Below, piece after piece: positions 57,207-64,000 of a DNA stretch of 64,000 nucleotides. The notes under the pieces were generated by a model. That model worked only from the letters and a program-made list of their open reading frames with translations, made no database searches and was not told where the DNA came from. How positions within the stretch are numbered: position 1 is the stretch's first letter; each line of letters opens with the position of its first letter. Position numbers and translations under genes: made by a program. This DNA is from Afipia clevelandensis ATCC 49720 (GTDB taxonomy: Bacteria; Pseudomonadota; Alphaproteobacteria; Rhizobiales; Xanthobacteraceae), in contig NZ_KB375281.1 of NCBI RefSeq assembly GCF_000336555.1, positions 434,001 through 498,000 of the forward strand, written 5' to 3'.

Positions 57207-57280
57207 TGGGGAATGGTGTAACGGTAGCACAACAGACTCTGACTCTGTTTGTCTAGGTTCGAATCCTAGTTCCCCAGCCA
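57207..57280 (+). tRNA. tRNA-Gln (anticodon CTG)
   Basis: A 74-nt cloverleaf. The acceptor stem is TGGGGAA/TTCCCCA, the D-arm begins GGTGTAACGGTAGCAC, and the anticodon stem ACAGA/TCTGT encloses CTCTGAC with anticodon CTG at 57239-57241. The T-arm has GGTTCGAATCC, the discriminator is G, and CCA is encoded at 57278-57280. The first base pair T-A is characteristic of tRNA-Gln. It borders the mobile region and is a plausible integration target. Confidence 0.95.
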
Positions 57281-57671
57281 GCCAGTTCAGTCTCTCGGAT
57301 AGAAACTGGCTCTGCCTAAGAGCGCTTTATTTTTCAGCGGGTTAGCGGGCATCGGACCGGTCTCTGCGACGGATTCGGCCGCGTCGGTCTCCCATTGGAG
57401 GCTGTTTGACACATAAATCTCTGGCGTCGATTTTTGATATCCGAATTTCGACGTCTTGGACCGCTGAGACTGGTTCGTTTTCGCGTGAGACCGGGTTTGA
57501 AATAGCGATTTGAGCGCGAAGGCGGCACTCAAAGTGCTGAGTGAGCAATTGCAGGGGTGATTGGCCCGCGCACCAGCTGGAAGTGAGCCCAGCTTCCAGT
57601 TCGGCTCGACGGTCATGACCGCAGGCACACTGGTGAACGTCACTAAATGTGTTGTGTCGGCGATTTTTACA
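57281..57671. other. Gap of 391 nt between tRNA-Gln and the recombinase gene
   Basis: Several overlapping minus-strand frames (up to 118 codons) are open, but none has a convincing start, RBS or recognisable domain. An imperfect hairpin GCCAGTT...AACTGGC lies just after the tRNA (57281-57311). The stretch may contain the element end or attachment core, but no direct repeat of the tRNA 3' end is found in the window. Confidence 0.5.
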
Positions 57672-59297
57672 TCAACGTTTTGAACTGACCTTTAGCAGGT
57701 GGTGTTGTTGGCGCCAGGAATGCACGGACGATTTTGCCAGTTCGGTGATTGTGAGGTTGGCAGGCGCCGTCCCTTCGATGATTGATTGCACGATGGATGG
57801 CGCGACAAACGCAAGCGGCGCAAGCAGGCGGATGTGACGTTCAACCTTTTTCTCTTTTGTGGCGATGTCTGCGAATGATTTCACACGTCCCGACGTCATG
57901 TCGCCGACCCATTGCCGCGCCTTGGCAATCGCGTTCAGGAGCGCGTCACGCGTGTCCGGGGTCAATGTAGGACCGGTCGGATCCGGTGCGTAAGCGATTC
58001 CTTTCACCGCGGAGAATACTTTGGCGGTCCAGGGGATTGAGATCGTATTTGAGCTTGCTGATGGCGAGTCCTTTGTTTTGCGAATTCCTGGAATGGTGTT
58101 CCTTAATGCGGATTCGGTCTCAAGAAGTTTGATCTCAAGGACCTCCCGTCTCACGACTATTTTTTCAATATGCGCAATGATAGCTTCCTGATCCGAGGGA
58201 GCGTCCGGATTGCAGCTGGATAAATTCTGCCGAACCGCCTGCAGGACGAGGTTTTCTATCTCGGTTGCAGGAACGCGATTGACGGAGCCTGCATCACGTT
58301 TGCGTCCCTGGATTAATGCGTGTGAGACATAATACCGGTATCGCACGCCGCGTTTGTTTGAATGGCTCGGCGTCATCCGATTGCCGATGTCATCAAAAAT
58401 ACGCCCCATCAGGAGCGCAGGTGAACCTTTGAGGCGCATTGCACGATCGACCGTGTTCTTCGTCAGCTTTTCCTGAACGTTGTCGAAAAGCGCATGGTCG
58501 AGAATGGCCTCGTGCTCTCCAGCGTGGATCTCACCACGATAATCGATCTCGCCGGTGTAAAATCGATTACGCAGCAAATGGGCGAGGGCACCGACGCCGA
58601 ATGGAATCCCGCCCCGGCTTTCTCCATTCGACAGAGGCCTGATTTTTGTCCGGATTCCCTTGCGCTCCAGGACTTCAGCAAGAGCTGCGATTGAATCGGC
58701 TTCAAGATACAATGCAAAAATCAGACGTACGATTTTCGCTTCCGCCGGAACGACAACAAGCTTCTTGTTCTCAGTGGCATAGCCGAGCGGCACGGGTCCG
58801 CCCACCCACAACCCCTTACGCTTGGACGCCGCGATCTTGTCCCGAACCCGCTCGCCAATGACCTCTCGTTCGAACTGGGCAAACGACAGCAGCACGTTAA
58901 GGGTCAGGCGGCCCATGCTGCTTGTGGTGTTGAACGACTGGGTAATCGAGACAAAGGAAACGCCGTGCTGATCGAACAGTTCGACCAGCTTGGCGAAGTC
59001 GGCAAGCGAGCGTGTCAGTCGATCGACCTTATAGACCAAGATGATGTCGATCTTGCCATCGCGCACGTCGTCGAGCAATCGTTGCAGCGACGGTCGGTTG
59101 AGGGACGCGCCCGAGAGTCCGCCATCGTCAAAATGATCGGGAATGAGTCGCCAGCCTTCATGGGCCTGGCTCTTGATATAGGCCTCGCAGGCTTCCCGCT
59201 GCGCATCGAGTGAGTTGAACTCAAGGTCGAGGTTATGTTCGGTGGATTTTCGGGTGTAGATCGCGCAGCGCTGCCGTTTTGGCGATTGAGGCGTCAT
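57672..59297 (-). CDS. Large serine recombinase
   Basis: A 541-residue site-specific recombinase. The N-terminal resolvase domain has the nucleophile Ser18 in AIYTRKSTEHN, FDDGGLSGASLNRPSLQRLL and YKVDRLTRSLADFAKLVEL. The recombinase domain follows at about 170-270 (GPVPLGYATENKKLVVVPAE). A C-terminal third has GRIFDDIGNRMTPSHSNKRG and a coiled region, without an obvious zinc-ribbon Cys set. Its ATG overlaps the DUF2924 stop by 4 nt. It is probably the integrase of the accessory region next to tRNA-Gln. Confidence 0.93.
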   Translation of the reverse strand: MTPQSPKRQRCAIYTRKSTEHNLDLEFNSLDAQREACEAYIKSQAHEGWRLIPDHFDDGGLSGASLNRPSLQRLLDDVRDGKIDIILVYKVDRLTRSLADFAKLVELFDQHGVSFVSITQSFNTTSSMGRLTLNVLLSFAQFEREVIGERVRDKIAASKRKGLWVGGPVPLGYATENKKLVVVPAEAKIVRLIFALYLEADSIAALAEVLERKGIRTKIRPLSNGESRGGIPFGVGALAHLLRNRFYTGEIDYRGEIHAGEHEAILDHALFDNVQEKLTKNTVDRAMRLKGSPALLMGRIFDDIGNRMTPSHSNKRGVRYRYYVSHALIQGRKRDAGSVNRVPATEIENLVLQAVRQNLSSCNPDAPSDQEAIIAHIEKIVVRREVLEIKLLETESALRNTIPGIRKTKDSPSASSNTISIPWTAKVFSAVKGIAYAPDPTGPTLTPDTRDALLNAIAKARQWVGDMTSGRVKSFADIATKEKKVERHIRLLAPLAFVAPSIVQSIIEGTAPANLTITELAKSSVHSWRQQHHLLKVSSKR

Positions 59298-59803
59298 CGG
59301 GCGCTCCCCCTGCCGCGACGAGGAGAACTCCGCGCTGCCTTCTCTGTTTTGTCCACTTCGCTGATGCCCAATCTCAGGCCAAAGAATTTTGGACCGTTCC
59401 AGTTGGTGCCGGTGATCAGGCGCGCGATGATCGAGAGACTGGCATAGGTTTCCTCCCTCCAGACGAATCCGTCCGATGCCACGACCACTGAATGCCGCTC
59501 GCCTTGGTATTCTCGAACCAGAACGGTGCCGGGCTTCAAGCGTCGTTGCGCTGTTTCGACCGCGGATTTACCCCGTCCGATGTCGTTCAAAATTCGCTGC
59601 GACGCCCGGCTTAAACTGCCGAGCGCCTTCTCTTGCATGTGGAAGCAGATCATGCGCCCCAACATGTCCTTGCCGAACGCGGACGGTGGGGACGATTTAA
59701 ACGTCTGCCGCCAAATTATCCGAAGCTGATCGACCGGCAGAGATCGGATCTGTTCGATCTCTGCCTCAAGCGCCGCTTCGCTCTTACTCGATATGTCGCT
59801 CAT
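59294..59803 (-). CDS. DUF2924 protein, recombinase-associated
   Basis: A 169-residue protein. The N-terminal part [25 protein letters not shown] and the later [49 protein letters not shown] are the recognisable DUF2924 features. The latter half looks like a small DNA-binding or beta domain, but its role is undescribed as far as I know. It overlaps both neighbours by 4 nt (ATGA), so all three proteins should be made in fixed proportion from one message. Confidence 0.88.
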
Positions 59804-60252
59804 ACCTTCTGGGATGGCCTGTGGTCGGCGATCCGGTACGATCGTTCGCTGCCGGATTTATCTGACACCAGATTCAAACTCAGTCGTTTGCGGACGACCC
59901 CAGCAAAGAAGCCGCGCACCGAATGCTGCTGCCAGCCGGTCGCCTTCATAATGTCGGCAATGGTCGTGCCTTTTGGCTGGCGCAGCATCGTGAGCACAGT
60001 GGCTTGCTTTGAAGAGTCGCGTGCGGGCTTTGCCACTGCGGGGTGGAGAGAAGGTCCTTTGGCTGGCTTCGACTGAGGGGCAGTTTCGAAGGAGCGTGCG
60101 GAGGGCTGTTCAGCGACGCCTCGAACGCGGGAGCGTGCTGCCTTGTCTGAACGAGTTGTTTTTACCACCTTCGATGGTTGTCGTACCGTGACAGCGGGTT
60201 TGCGCGTTACACCTGCTTTGCGGGCAGTACCTTTAGCTTTCTGGATGTTCAT
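59800..60252 (-). CDS. DUF3489 protein with winged-helix-like C-terminus
   Basis: A 150-residue protein with a basic, disordered N-terminal half (Lys/Arg/Ala/Pro-rich) and a C-terminal DUF3489 domain: [20 protein letters not shown] followed by [21 protein letters not shown]. The domain reads like a winged helix-turn-helix. The AGGAGA RBS at the ATG marks it as first gene of the three-gene cassette. It is a candidate regulator or directionality factor for the recombinase; this is inference. Confidence 0.88.
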
Positions 60253-60356
60253 GGAATCTCCTGTGGGTCAACGGCAACATCGGGTGCTGCCACTGACCCG
60301 GCCCGCCGATCGCAATGCGAGGGCGGGGGGAGGGTCCCAGCTAGGGAAAACGCTGA

Positions 60357-60620
60357 CTATGCGGTCTCAGCAAACAGGTTGCGTTTGATTGTCAGCGCTG
60401 CCTTGAACAGGTCCCGTGCCTCATGCACCAGGCCCTCAAAGTCCATCAGGATCTGTACCGCGCGATCCACGCTGCCATCGCGCGCGCAGCTTTCTGCGGC
60501 TTTCGCGATACTAAGAGTTTCTTCCAGCTTGCCGCGGATTTCCGTTACGAGTGCGGGGCGACCACGATATTTGCGGCGACATCGGTCATCAGGGTGCTCT
60601 TTTTGCGTACCACCACACAC
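60357..60620 (-). pseudogene. Small cassette-associated ORF, probably 5'-frameshifted
   Basis: The 87-codon frame opens with GTG at 60620. Its last 65 or so residues look coherent (VTEIRGKLEETLSIAKAAES, AVQILMDFEGLVHEARDLFK, ALTIKRNLFAE), predicted helical. The first 20 or so are Arg/Cys-rich and odd. An ATG at 60589 in the next frame begins MTDVAANIVVAP and would join the conserved part if one C were restored to the CCCC run near 60555. Thus the natural N-terminus is probably lost by a 1-nt deletion. Function unknown; located upstream of the DUF3489-DUF2924-recombinase genes on the same strand. Confidence 0.55.
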
Positions 60621-60703
60621 GCTCCGTTCGCCGCCGAAGTCGAGCGGATTGTGAGCAATCTTGTGGCTCTTATCGAACGGTTCGGATCACAAAATGCTCG
60701 GGG

Positions 60704-61498
60704 TTAGCTTTCCTTGGATCTGACTACGATGACGTGCTGCAGGAAGTCTATACAAGCGGCATAGCGGAAAGACTCGTCGACAGCCCCAATTTTCTGCACG
60801 TATTGTTTGGGGCAGGGTTGTTCGGCAATACCCGATTGCGGGAGCTTGTTGCTCGCTATGTCGGCCAAGAGGCTCTGGCGGCCGTCGCCGAGGAATCCGC
60901 TAAGGGCCGACGATTGCTTGTCGCGACGACCGACCTTGATACTCAGCGCACAGCGATTTGGGATATGGGCCGTATCGCCGAGGTTGGGACGGCCGAAGCA
61001 CTCAGCCTCTTTCGTGATGTCATGGCTGCATCTGCGAGCATACCGCTCGTGTTCCCGCCGATTTTGATAAGCGCGAAGGCTGATGGTAAAGAGTTCCAGG
61101 AGATGCACGTCGATGGTGGCGTCACGGCACCGATCCTGACGTTACCCGATGCGTTTTTATTGGAGGGGCGTTCACTTCCCGCAGGTCATCGGCTCAACAT
61201 TTATCTTCTCTTGAACAACAAGTTAGAACGGGACTTCGAGCTTGTCCCGAATAGTACAATTGATGTTGCGTCGCGCGCTATCTCTTCGGTTACGAAATCC
61301 CAAACTCGGTCCATTGTTTTTTCAACTTATGAGTTTGCTCGTCGCAATCGACTAGACTTCCACCTGACTTTTATCGATCGCAAGATCCCTTCGCCTTCGT
61401 CGCCAGGCTTCGATACGACTTATATGCGCGGGCTTTACCAATACGGCTACGAAAAGGCGCGTGGCGATCATGCTTGGACGGGCACCCCTCCAGGGTAA
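60704..61498 (+). pseudogene. Patatin-like phospholipase, 5'-truncated
   Basis: About 264 codons match the second half of a patatin-like lipase: LAFLGSDYDDVLQEVYTSG, ATTDLDTQRTAIWDMG, VMAASASIPLVFPPIL and the catalytic Asp in HVDGGVTAP. The upstream part with oxyanion GGG and nucleophile GxSxG is missing; codons before 60704 in this frame are unrelated. With only the Asp of the Ser-Asp dyad it should be inactive. The breakpoint coincides with the 5' side of the recombinase cassette, implying loss by insertion or deletion. Confidence 0.78.
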
Positions 61499-61574
61499 CC
61501 CTCCAGATAAAGGCGTGGGGTGTAACAAAGTCGCAATATTCTCGACATTTTCACGGTATCCCGATGAAAAGCCG

Positions 61575-62357
61575 ATGACCCCGGCCGCGAAGCACGATAT
61601 CGATTACCGGCAAACGCCACTCAAACAACAAGCGGGATCCCTAGGCATGGGCGCTAATCACTATGCAGCGAAGCCTAGACAGGCGGTGAAGCGAAAATTC
61701 AGTGGTGGCCGCCCCACAAGGGACGCTGCAGCGTTGCGTGACCAGCATCTCCTTGCTGTAGCCACGGCACTGTTTCTAGAGCGCGGGTTCGATGCGACAT
61801 CTATAGATGCAGTCGCTGAGGCTGCGCATGTGAGCAAGCCGACGGTCTATGCGCAATATCAGGATAAACGGGGCCTGTTCAGCGCAGTGCTAAGGCAACA
61901 GATAGGGCAATTTCTTGCCCCCCTCGCTACCGCAGCGGAAATGCCGGTCAGCGCGCGCTCTAAGGCGTCTGTCGAGAGGACATTAATCGATCTCGGCCGC
62001 AAGCTACAAGCGATCACCAGCGGAGCGCGTCATGCGTCTGTCCGCCGAATCCTCGCGGCACAGGCGGCTAACTTCCCCGAGCTTGCGTTATTGGCACATG
62101 AGGAAGGGTGGTCAAAAGCTGTTAAAACCACGGCGCGCTTTTTTGACCATCTTGTCGCCGAAGGCGTTTTGGAATTGTTCGATTCGGAGATTGCAGCGGA
62201 AAATTTTCTCAACATAGTGATGGGTCACACTACGCGTTTCGTGCATTACGGTATCGCGATTGATCCAAAAGAGCAGGACCGGCGCCTGCGTCTCTCCATT
62301 CGCATGCTCCTTACGGGCTTTTCCGCAAAGGCAGTAAGGGCGCTGGGGGACCGTTAA
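61575..62357 (+). CDS. TetR-family transcriptional regulator
   Basis: Up to 260 residues. A basic, disordered N-terminus (KPRQAVKRKFSGGRPTRDAA) precedes the TetR helix-turn-helix (ALFLERGFDATSIDAVAEAA, HVSKPTVYAQYQDKRGLFSAVL), then an all-helical ligand domain of the TetR_C/AefR type. ATG 61647 (MGANHYAAKP) is an equally possible start. The gene that it regulates is not obvious: downstream there is a 200 nt AT-rich region and then an IS element. Confidence 0.88.
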   Translation: MTPAAKHDIDYRQTPLKQQAGSLGMGANHYAAKPRQAVKRKFSGGRPTRDAAALRDQHLLAVATALFLERGFDATSIDAVAEAAHVSKPTVYAQYQDKRGLFSAVLRQQIGQFLAPLATAAEMPVSARSKASVERTLIDLGRKLQAITSGARHASVRRILAAQAANFPELALLAHEEGWSKAVKTTARFFDHLVAEGVLELFDSEIAAENFLNIVMGHTTRFVHYGIAIDPKEQDRRLRLSIRMLLTGFSAKAVRALGDR

Positions 62358-62405
62358 CGGTTTGAAACGCCATCAACTTGCGGATTCTTACCGATGTGCA
62401 AATCG

Positions 62406-62433
62406 TTGACAATCAAAAAACAACACATATCGT
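62406..62433 (+). promoter_or_regulatory. Promoter-like sequence ending against the IS3 element
   Basis: TTGACA, 16 nt spacer, TATCGT in an AT-rich stretch after the TetR gene, reading toward the IS element. No gene follows before the IS end, so an original target gene may have been displaced. Confidence 0.35.
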
Positions 62434-62571
62434 TTTGTTATCTGCTCCTGTCAGAATAAGCGTACGCATAGCGTGATGCTGTGGACCGATGGTGCCGCTC
62501 CCCAAATTCACGGCCGGCTAGGATGAATGCAAGGTGCCATTTTGGAGCTGCCCCGTTTTGTGGTCCAGGTT

Positions 62572-63414
62572 CTAGGCAATTTCTCGGACTGTTTGAGTTT
62601 GTCGTGCGAACTCGTTCGGCGTCAAGTTGCCAAGCGAGGTATGGGGTCTGTCGTTGTTGTAGTGGCACCTCCATTCTTCGATCCGGTCGGTGGCGTCTGC
62701 CATCGACAGGAACCATGATGCGTTGAGACACTCTGCACGTACGCGACCATTGAAGGCTTCACAAAATGCATTGTCGGTTGGCTTTCCTGGCCTGGAGAAC
62801 TCGATCTCAATGCCGTTAAGATAGGCCCATTGATCGAGCATCCTGCCGGCAAACTCCGGACCGTTGTCGCAGCGAACAGTTTTTGGCTTGCCGCGCTCCT
62901 TTGCCAGCCGCTCAAGAACATCGACGACCTGGAAGGCCTTGAAGTTCGCTCTCGGAACGATCGCAAGTGATTCTCGTGTGTGGCAGTCGACAACCGTCAA
63001 AAGCCGGAATGAGCGGCCGTCGAACAGCGCATCCGACATGAAGTCCATCGCCCAGCATTGGTTCTGGTCTGCGATCTCTGGCCGACCTGAACGATAGCGC
63101 CAGGCTCGCTTGCGCTTCGGGGCTTTGGACCTGATGGAGAGCCCTTCTTCGCGATAGAGCCGATAGATTCGCTTGTGGTTCAAACGGTAGCCTTCGCGCA
63201 GAAGCAGCACATGAAGACGCCGATAGCCGTAACGTACGCGACTGGCCGCGAGGTCCCTCAACCGAATGCGCAGTTCAGTTTGTGGATCGCCGCGCGACTT
63301 GTAACGCTGCGAAGAGCGATGGAAGCCGGTCGCCTTGCAGGCCCGTCGTTCGCCGATATCGTAGACCTTCTGAAGATGATGCACGATCTCGCGTCGGACG
63401 GCGGGCCTCACCAT
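62572..63414 (-). CDS. IS3-family transposase OrfB (DDE integrase domain)
   Basis: A 280-residue integrase domain of the IS2/IS407-like part of IS3. It has an HTH_21 N-terminal segment ([20 protein letters not shown]) and a DDE triad Asp124 ([10 protein letters not shown]), Asp183 (VRCDNGPEF) and Glu219 ([12 protein letters not shown]), with the canonical 35 residues between the last two. All three residues are intact. It is read by -1 frameshift from orfA at the A7 run (63414-63420) or from its own ATG at 63414. Confidence 0.93.
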
Positions 63415-63674
63415 TTTTTTCTTAAGACATCCTGCAGCATCGCTTTGTCCAGCGTCAGATCCGCCACCACACGCTTCAGCTTTGTGTTCTCATCCTCAAG
63501 CTGCTTCAGCCGTCGGATCTCGGCCACACCCATGCCGGCGTAGACTTTCTTCCAGCGATAGAATGTCGGCTCCGACACCCCCATCTTGCGGCAGATCTCC
63601 TCGATCGTCGTGCCGCTCTCAGCTTGCCTCAATGCAAAGGCAATCTGCTCCTCCGAAAACCGCTTTCGCTTCAT
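63408..63674 (-). CDS. IS3-family transposase OrfA (helix-turn-helix)
   Basis: An 88-residue DNA-binding protein: [20 protein letters not shown], then the HTH_8/transposase_8 segment [19 protein letters not shown] and a leucine-zipper-like end ([19 protein letters not shown]). It ends LRKKW at the AAAAAAA slip site where OrfB begins in the -1 frame. Confidence 0.93.
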
Positions 63675-63747
63675 GGCATCCTCCCTCCATGGGGTTCAGA
63701 ATGCCCGAAAAAATTGCCCTCAACATGGACCAGTTAGATGGGTCAGG

Positions 63748-63969
63748 ATCACGCTCGCGGCACGCGACATCACAGCCGTGATCCCGCCCAAAGCCAACCG
63801 CAAGATTCAGCGCCGATGTGATTTCGCGCTTTACCGCGAACGCAACCTCGTCGAGCGCTTCTTCAATAAGCTCAAGCAATTTTGTGGCATCGCCACCCGA
63901 TATGACAAGCTCGCCAGAAATTACCTCGCCGCAATTCAATTGGTCGCTGGTACTATGCTCCTCAACTGA
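63748..63969 (+). pseudogene. IS5-family transposase, C-terminal remnant
   Basis: A 73-codon fragment beginning exactly at the IS3 right end. It carries the catalytic-Glu region Y(2)R(3)E(6)K as YRERNLVERFFNKLK and ends IQLVAGTMLLN, typical of IS427-group IS5 elements. The N-terminal two thirds with the two catalytic Asp residues are absent and are not found on the other side of the IS3 element. Confidence 0.85.
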
Positions 63970-64000
63970 AGACACGCCCTAGTGGAGTCCGAGGCGATGC

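Follow-up and report, generated by a model that had tools for sequence, protein, structure and literature searches.

The 64,000-nt stretch of Afipia clevelandensis ATCC 49720 analyzed here (the window; genome positions 434001-498000 of a single contig of 4,399,548 bases) encodes, next to a tRNA-Gln(CTG) gene, a large serine recombinase together with a DUF2924 and a DUF3489 protein. This trio probably serves a family of genomic islands as their integration/excision module, in which a serine integrase specific for tRNA 3' ends works with two dedicated DNA-binding cofactors. By comparison between genomes, the module is mobile and tRNA-targeting, and the window trio occupies the left end of an island of 66.3 kb that abuts the tRNA-Gln(CTG) 3' end; the cofactor roles of DUF2924 and DUF3489 we infer from gene order and structural models.

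Gene content and layout of the module

The features of the locus, in window coordinates, are as follows.

57672-59297, minus strand: serine recombinase (integrase), 541 aa, from the open reading frame (ORF) call and Resolvase/Recombinase domain matches
59294-59803, minus strand: DUF2924 protein, 169 aa, with a predicted SAP/Rho-N-like helical N-terminus and RAMA-like C-terminal part
59800-60252, minus strand: DUF3489 protein, 150 aa, with a low-confidence N-terminus and a winged helix (residues 77-141 of the model)
60357-60620, minus strand: small ORF, 87 aa, GTG start
57207-57280, plus strand: tRNA-Gln(CTG) found by ARAGORN, intact, the proposed integration target
57274-57280, plus strand: core CCAGCCA of the left attachment site (attL), at the tRNA 3' end; the same 7 nt occur at the right site (attR), genome 557553-557559, outside the window
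57281-57671, no strand: P' arm, between tRNA and recombinase, homologous in the elements of three relatives from the tRNA 3' end inward
57255-60706, no strand: shared 3.4-kb module, 87-93% identical to elements elsewhere in three relatives
57281-64000, no strand: left part of the 66.3-kb island, which runs on beyond the window to genome 557553

The first-pass annotation had described a trio joined by two 4-nt ATGA overlaps and preceded by a small ORF, and the layout was borne out by the ORF coordinates, by the overlaps at 59294-59297 and 59800-59803 (tcat on the plus strand), and by the family matches of DUF2924 (E = 2.6e-40) and DUF3489 (E = 2.6e-27). The 3' end of tRNA-Gln(CTG) faces the 3' end of the recombinase gene. 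The small ORF is a probable fourth member of the module; a family search with it gave no match above cut-off, and a counterpart (32% identical) occupied the same place in one relative's island. An apparently 5'-truncated patatin-like ORF (60551-61498) overlaps it on the opposite strand.

Conservation of the trio

Four DUF2924 genes, four DUF3489 genes and four matching full-length recombinases were present in this genome, making four trios. Among 198 genomes of the family, DUF2924 occurred in 63 and DUF3489 in 48, and DUF2924 was found in 7 of 12 genomes drawn from the genus. Across the family, a recombinase lay within 1.5 kb downstream on the same strand at 117 of 134 DUF2924 places (69 full-length, 35 phage-type and 13 partial matches), and DUF2924 stood directly downstream at 81 of 98 DUF3489 places. 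DUF2924 preceded 67 of the 69 full-length recombinases, with both partners upstream in 61. At most seven recombinase candidates were scored per genome, making recombinase counts lower bounds, and loci of one genome and of close relatives were counted separately, so that all counts include kin. Chance proximity is ruled out by the synteny counts (117/134 and 81/98), and the possibility raised earlier that the DUF genes occur mostly apart from the recombinase does not hold in the family.

The phage-type class (n = 37), whose match stops at residues 351-361, had DUF2924 upstream in 35 cases, with DUF3489 adjacent in 2 and located 3.6-20 kb upstream in 8 more. As these relatives keep DUF2924 at the recombinase and seldom an adjacent DUF3489, DUF2924 is, on gene order, the constant and closer recombinase partner and DUF3489 the movable one.

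In a wider sample comprising the best 80 DUF3489 loci each from genome contigs and viral contigs, an ordered trio was present at 53 genome loci and on 35 viral contigs (88 of 160 loci, 92 trios). The other 72 loci (27 genome loci and 45 viral contigs) showed no ordered trio, some of them ending at contig edges. DUF2924 and recombinase genes overlapped in 81 of the 92 trios, a start codon at exactly -4 being available in 46, and DUF3489 and DUF2924 genes in 41; for these junction lengths the start codon nearest a 4-nt overlap was chosen, which biases them toward that value. By record title, the genome trios were mostly alphaproteobacterial, and a few came from metagenome bins called Acidobacteriaceae and Marinimicrobia, which may be misbinned. 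No ordered trio occurred among the beta- and gammaproteobacterial DUF3489 loci listed. Together with the family counts, this sample agrees with the recurrence in alphaproteobacterial genomes that the first-pass annotation had put forward.

tRNA target

A tRNA gene was detected downstream of the recombinase at 19 of the 88 trio loci, with its 3' end facing the recombinase in 17 (within 431 bases in 16 of them), and upstream of the trio at none of the 88 (376 kb scanned). The facing tRNAs were specific for Gln, Val, Lys, Met and Tyr; all 17 ended in CCA, followed by NNCAGT in 10. Where at least 520 bases of room were available, 15 of 65 trio loci had a facing tRNA within 450 bases. These counts are non-independent, as some loci share a genome or recur from the family comparison. 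For the phage-type relatives a tRNA target was rejected: only one of the 20 places sampled (of 37) held a tRNA in a 3.5-kb stretch, a facing tRNA-Met.

Island ends and attachment sites

The chromosome to the left of tRNA-Gln(CTG) was conserved in relatives as far as the tRNA 3' end. The 3.4-kb module recurred in three relatives at tRNA-Gln(TTG) (two genomes) and in a tandem array (the third). Unoccupied alleles, with tRNA-Gln(CTG) but no P' arm, were found in genomes G065 and G209 (both with the shared flank, 88%), G106, G198 and G210; P'-arm homology was present in G168, G179, G188, G205, G206, G211 and G214. The same module at different sites rules out a fixed chromosomal relic, and a single fixed site without empty alleles, which the first-pass annotation had allowed for, is not what the relatives show. 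The window island measures 66,279 bases from core to core, between the attL core at genome 491274 (window 57274) and the attR core at genome 557553, where CCAGCCA directly follows a P arm. Of the earlier proposal of a self-contained module beside tRNA-Gln, mobility and a tRNA-Gln attachment site stood, whereas the cassette in the window proved to be only one end of this island.

Thirty non-identical stretches of the distal P arm, TTCCCTGTAAAATTCCCTGTTAGCAGGGAATTC....GGAGAC.GGTGCGATCAGCACTGCGTCG and then CCAGCCA, remained after removal of 3 of 33 candidates with more than six mismatches. Bases 50-80 of the arm, outside the search pattern, had a mean identity of 0.88-0.96. Two motifs were concentrated in the P arms relative to the island background, TTCCCTG (19.7/kb vs 0.10/kb) and GAGAC[CG]GG (6.0/kb vs 0.08/kb); the latter also occurred twice in the 386 bases counted of the P' arm of the window island. 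Searching 29 genus genomes with the P-arm pattern gave 66 hits, spread over 21 of them, against 2 for the reversed control, some of the 3-mismatch hits being other sequences. A methylation-based reading of the arms was dropped: GATC was not enriched (6.55/kb in P and 4.17/kb in P' arms vs 8.03/kb in the background), and GANTC stood at 1.71/kb in P and 5.39/kb in P' arms vs 2.72/kb.

Two further islands of this genome, also bounded by P arms, lie in tandem: island D (4106556-4174735), starting at tRNA-Gln(TTG), and island C (4174735-4230787). On contig G197:C5, five trios alternated with four P-arm junctions over 190 kb, with an additional tRNA-like repeat without P arm at 58629. By these alignments, a conserved attP arm with a CCAGCCA core is found repeatedly across the genus and forms the boundary between tandem islands. 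As shown by comparison between loci, the recombinase is near one island end, the putative attP (island attachment site) consists of the conserved P arm, the CCAGCCA core and the P' arm, and the putative attB (chromosomal site) is the CCA-ending 3' terminus of a tRNA gene; islands pile up in tandem at one tRNA, and one module occupies different sites across genomes. Strand exchange by the recombinase would take place inside CCAGCCA, by which the tRNA would be rebuilt.

A lone trio at genome 2297508-2300184 was flanked by 13-nt repeats 2,664 bases apart, the left one following a tRNA-Gln-like sequence and not a P arm. The 13-mer occurred four times in 401 kb of this chromosome, always at att-like sites. 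This is perhaps a minimal cassette or a remnant; the latter is suggested by the left repeat having no P arm and by the fact that two-copy 13-nt repeats can arise by chance.

The window copy itself might be a dead remnant beside the tRNA that has lost its mobility, which we regard as possible though not probable. Insertion sequence (IS) elements within the island, the absence of a terminase among the families listed for it, and a right flank unlike that of one matching relative are in keeping with such decay, but all three genes are open frames with the active-site residues kept, the core and both arms are present, and copies of the module elsewhere share 87-93% identity with it. Homologues of the right flanks of both tRNA-Gln islands (genome 557645-559180 and 4230800-4234000) were seen on relatives' tRNA-Gln(CTG) contigs, and the flanks of the two islands hint at a rearrangement between the two tRNA-Gln sites.

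Recombinase and predicted folds of its partners

The recombinase possessed Resolvase (PF00239; E = 1.4e-40, 139.1 bits) and Recombinase (PF07508; E = 2.5e-14, 53.8 bits) domains, both above cut-off. S18 and D92 R93 L94 T95 R96 (DRLTR motif), which we take to be active-site residues with S18 as the catalytic serine, were kept in at least 95% of 76 aligned recombinases. The zinc ribbon PF13408 scored 16.3 bits, below its cut-off of 25.3, and region 285-400 contained no cysteine in 56 of the 76 sequences and a single one in the other 20. PF13408 is usual but not universal in the family; it is also missing in 10 of 42 streptococcal serine integrases (PMC4701971, in excerpt). Read by eye, the C-terminal domain holds a helix-turn-helix-like segment and offers little room for a coiled-coil motif. 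NCBIfam matches to the recombinases of staphylococcal cassette chromosome mec (SCCmec) were far under cut-off and were discarded.

The DUF3489 model formed helices from residue 77 and strands to 141, with a predicted local distance difference test score (pLDDT) above 90 over residues 81-140. This predicted winged helix, in keeping with the winged-helix-like domain proposed earlier, resembled ArsR/MarR proteins, DriD, NiaR and NolR in a structure comparison. For DUF2924 (mean pLDDT 81.6), the N-terminal helical domain matched 4qoz, a domain we presume to be SAP (Z = 9.0, 56 aligned residues), T4 endonuclease VII (Z = 7.1) and Rho (Z = 5.8); SAP, the Rho N-terminus and the endonuclease VII C-terminus belong to one fold class. 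Its C-terminal part matched the RAMA domain of MPND (7ydw; Z = 6.5, root mean square deviation 2.5, 70 aligned residues, 23% identity), and the next matches, apart from a second MPND entry, had Z of about 3.3. The Pfam RAMA profile scored 17.9 bits on the DUF2924 protein, below its cut-off of 35.2. Profile searches with both DUF alignments against sequences of solved structures returned nothing under E = 0.04, and Foldseek nothing under E = 0.001 with either model (best for DUF3489, 7.3e-3 at probability 1.00); the SAP and RAMA readings come from the second structure comparison that followed Foldseek. DUF2924 is thus predicted to be a SAP-like and RAMA-like DNA-binding protein. Its RAMA reading is not new, a partial match between RAMA and DUF2924 being already in print (PMC11342252, in excerpt).

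In the proposed scheme, DUF2924, translated in overlap with the recombinase, would be a DNA-binding protein dedicated to that enzyme, acting at the attP arms or in the synapse, while DUF3489, encoded first, may bind the arm repeats or the operon promoter and so set expression or direction. Either would be a candidate for the directionality factor proposed in the first-pass annotation. It is doubtful that the two proteins are instead transcriptional regulators or DNA-protection proteins which merely share the operon. DUF3489 does have a winged helix like that of ArsR/MarR proteins, DriD and NiaR, and often stood without an adjacent trio in the wider sample; the gene overlaps would fit plain operon coupling equally well; and RAMA, in the part of PMC9963953 consulted, touches DNA without specific base contacts, N6-methyladenine (6mA) giving no significant rise in binding. 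However, in the family DUF2924 lies beside a recombinase at 117 of 134 places, and the same pairing is found in the phages AcaML1 and Wolbachia WO; such constancy is unusual for a generic regulator.

Cargo and backbone of the islands

Upstream of the trio, island D carried a ParB/methylase gene, DUF5681 and a terminase large subunit (TerL; phrog_38, E = 3.8e-95). The same block was recognized by sequence reading in islands C and F, and in F also by the PHROG scan. Among 48 terminase places in the family, 28 lay within 12 kb of a trio gene, 14 were on contigs without a trio gene and 6 were further away. PHROG was run on 28 of the 33 ORFs in island F, on 53 of 61 in the window island (island A) and on 44 of 68 in island D; among the best 25 of the 27-29 families per island there was no capsid, portal or tail family, and among those of island A no terminase. 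No relaxase or conjugation family was among 25 of the 28 Pfam families listed for the same 53 ORFs of island A.

An alternative is that a defective prophage or phage satellite uses the trio for its integration, with the methylase-DUF5681-terminase block packaging the island in a helper capsid and DUF3489 belonging to the phage programme. The block in islands D, C and F, the 28 of 48 terminase places near a trio gene, and the absence of capsid, portal and tail genes from the families listed for F, A and D point in this direction, as do the DUF3489 gene adjoining terminase genes in AcaML1 and the large serine recombinase likewise used by the Vibrio PLE satellite (PMC6002521, in part). Nevertheless, we consider this origin unlikely: none of the three block genes was present at 31 of the 50 trio loci that had room upstream, the window island had no terminase among its listed families, the scans covered the shares of ORFs given above, and no helper is known. 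Islands of 43-68 kb are, moreover, large for phage satellites.

The cargo of the window island included fatty-acid/CoA catabolism, branched-chain ABC transport and IS66 genes; an IS3-type transposase of two ORFs (HTH_Tnp_1 and rve) lies within the island at window 62572-63674. Island F carried Wadjet JetABCD. At about 1516767-1528442 of G025:C2, Wadjet JetABCD, SbcC-like and, by eye, SIR2-like genes were seen as island cargo. Island D carried, between recombinase and tRNA-Gln(TTG) (genome 4107650-4111453), a Hachiman-like defence pair made up of a Cap4 nuclease-HamA fusion and a DEAD helicase; metal efflux genes were also recognized in this island by eye.

Relation to known systems and significance

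In Wolbachia phage WO (gp31/gp30 region, AB036666), the DUF2924 gene is, as here, immediately beside a serine recombinase (PMC11376236, PMC10299305, both in excerpt). WO differs in being a phage and in its recombinase (33-35% identical), and the WO records gave no match to DUF3489 at E = 0.01. Acidithiobacillus phage AcaML1 (JX507079) likewise has a recombinase touched by a DUF2924 gene and a same-strand DUF3489 gene, but DUF3489 lies 18 kb away beside terminase genes, the recombinase matches residues 8-379 only, and an excisionase is annotated. In this phage the genes for DUF3489 and the terminase small subunit (L423:21337-22479) adjoin back to back.

The serine integrases of phiC31, TP901-1, A118 and SPbeta share the Resolvase and Recombinase domains, with sequence matches to solved chains; unlike phiC31-type integrases, the module here has no zinc-ribbon cysteines, a tRNA 3'-end target, a long conserved attP arm and two constant neighbours. 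Tandem accretion and attP arms, as in the islands here, are also features of tyrosine-integrase islands, although the enzyme is here an unrelated serine recombinase. Tyrosine-integrase islands at tRNA genes share the target site and the preserved tRNA as well, tRNA 3' ends being usually tyrosine-integrase ground in the parts consulted of PMC4701971 and PMC11476347, and a serine enzyme with a long attP arm is mechanistically unexpected there. The V. cholerae PLE is likewise an island with a large serine recombinase; its directionality factor is supplied by a phage, and the sections consulted of PMC6002521 do not mention DUF2924 or DUF3489.

Several observations weigh against the proposed integration module. 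As many as 35 of the 37 phage-type recombinases are without an adjacent DUF3489, so that DUF3489 is not required throughout the recombinase family, and the annotated excisionase of AcaML1, present besides DUF2924 and DUF3489, speaks against either as the directionality factor there. Both fold assignments for DUF2924, SAP and RAMA, come from predicted structures with middling Z scores (9.0 and 6.5). At the target, 50 of the 65 trio loci with room showed no facing tRNA within 450 bp, some of which are accounted for by tandem junctions or cargo, and two trio loci had a tRNA-Ile facing away. TTCCCTG occurred in none of 9 P' arms counted. Finally, no allele joining both flanks of the window island was found among relatives, and its right flank lay 7.9 kb from the tRNA in one matching relative, so that a deletion or rearrangement is likely.

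The literature search, covering mainly non-subscription papers, found no publication naming both DUF2924 and DUF3489, and no description of the trio module and its sites in the literature on serine integrases and tRNA genes. The mentions found, seen in excerpts, were Wolbachia work only for DUF2924, including its placement beside a recombinase, and remote-homology work for DUF3489. As far as these excerpts go, DUF2924 beside a serine recombinase is already in print for phage WO, and no published account of the trio and its sites turned up.

A broader reading, which we offer tentatively and hold to be quite unlikely, is that the recombinases form a distinct serine-integrase class for tRNA 3' ends, without zinc-ribbon control and run, in the manner of tyrosine integrases, by two dedicated DNA-binding proteins that act on long attP arms. 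The islands, many with methylase and terminase and no capsid, would then be a new helper-packaged family through which defence, metal-resistance and catabolic genes spread among alphaproteobacteria.

For the integration module proposed here, the comparisons provide a defined att system for an alphaproteobacterial serine recombinase, namely the tRNA CCA end, a 7-nt core and a conserved arm, and turn two domains of unknown function into testable integrase partners. The module allows islands with defence and metal-resistance genes to be delimited across many genomes, and a serine integrase acting at tRNA 3' ends could become an insertion tool. It appears to insert large islands at tRNA gene ends, and would thus represent a little-described route of bacterial DNA acquisition.

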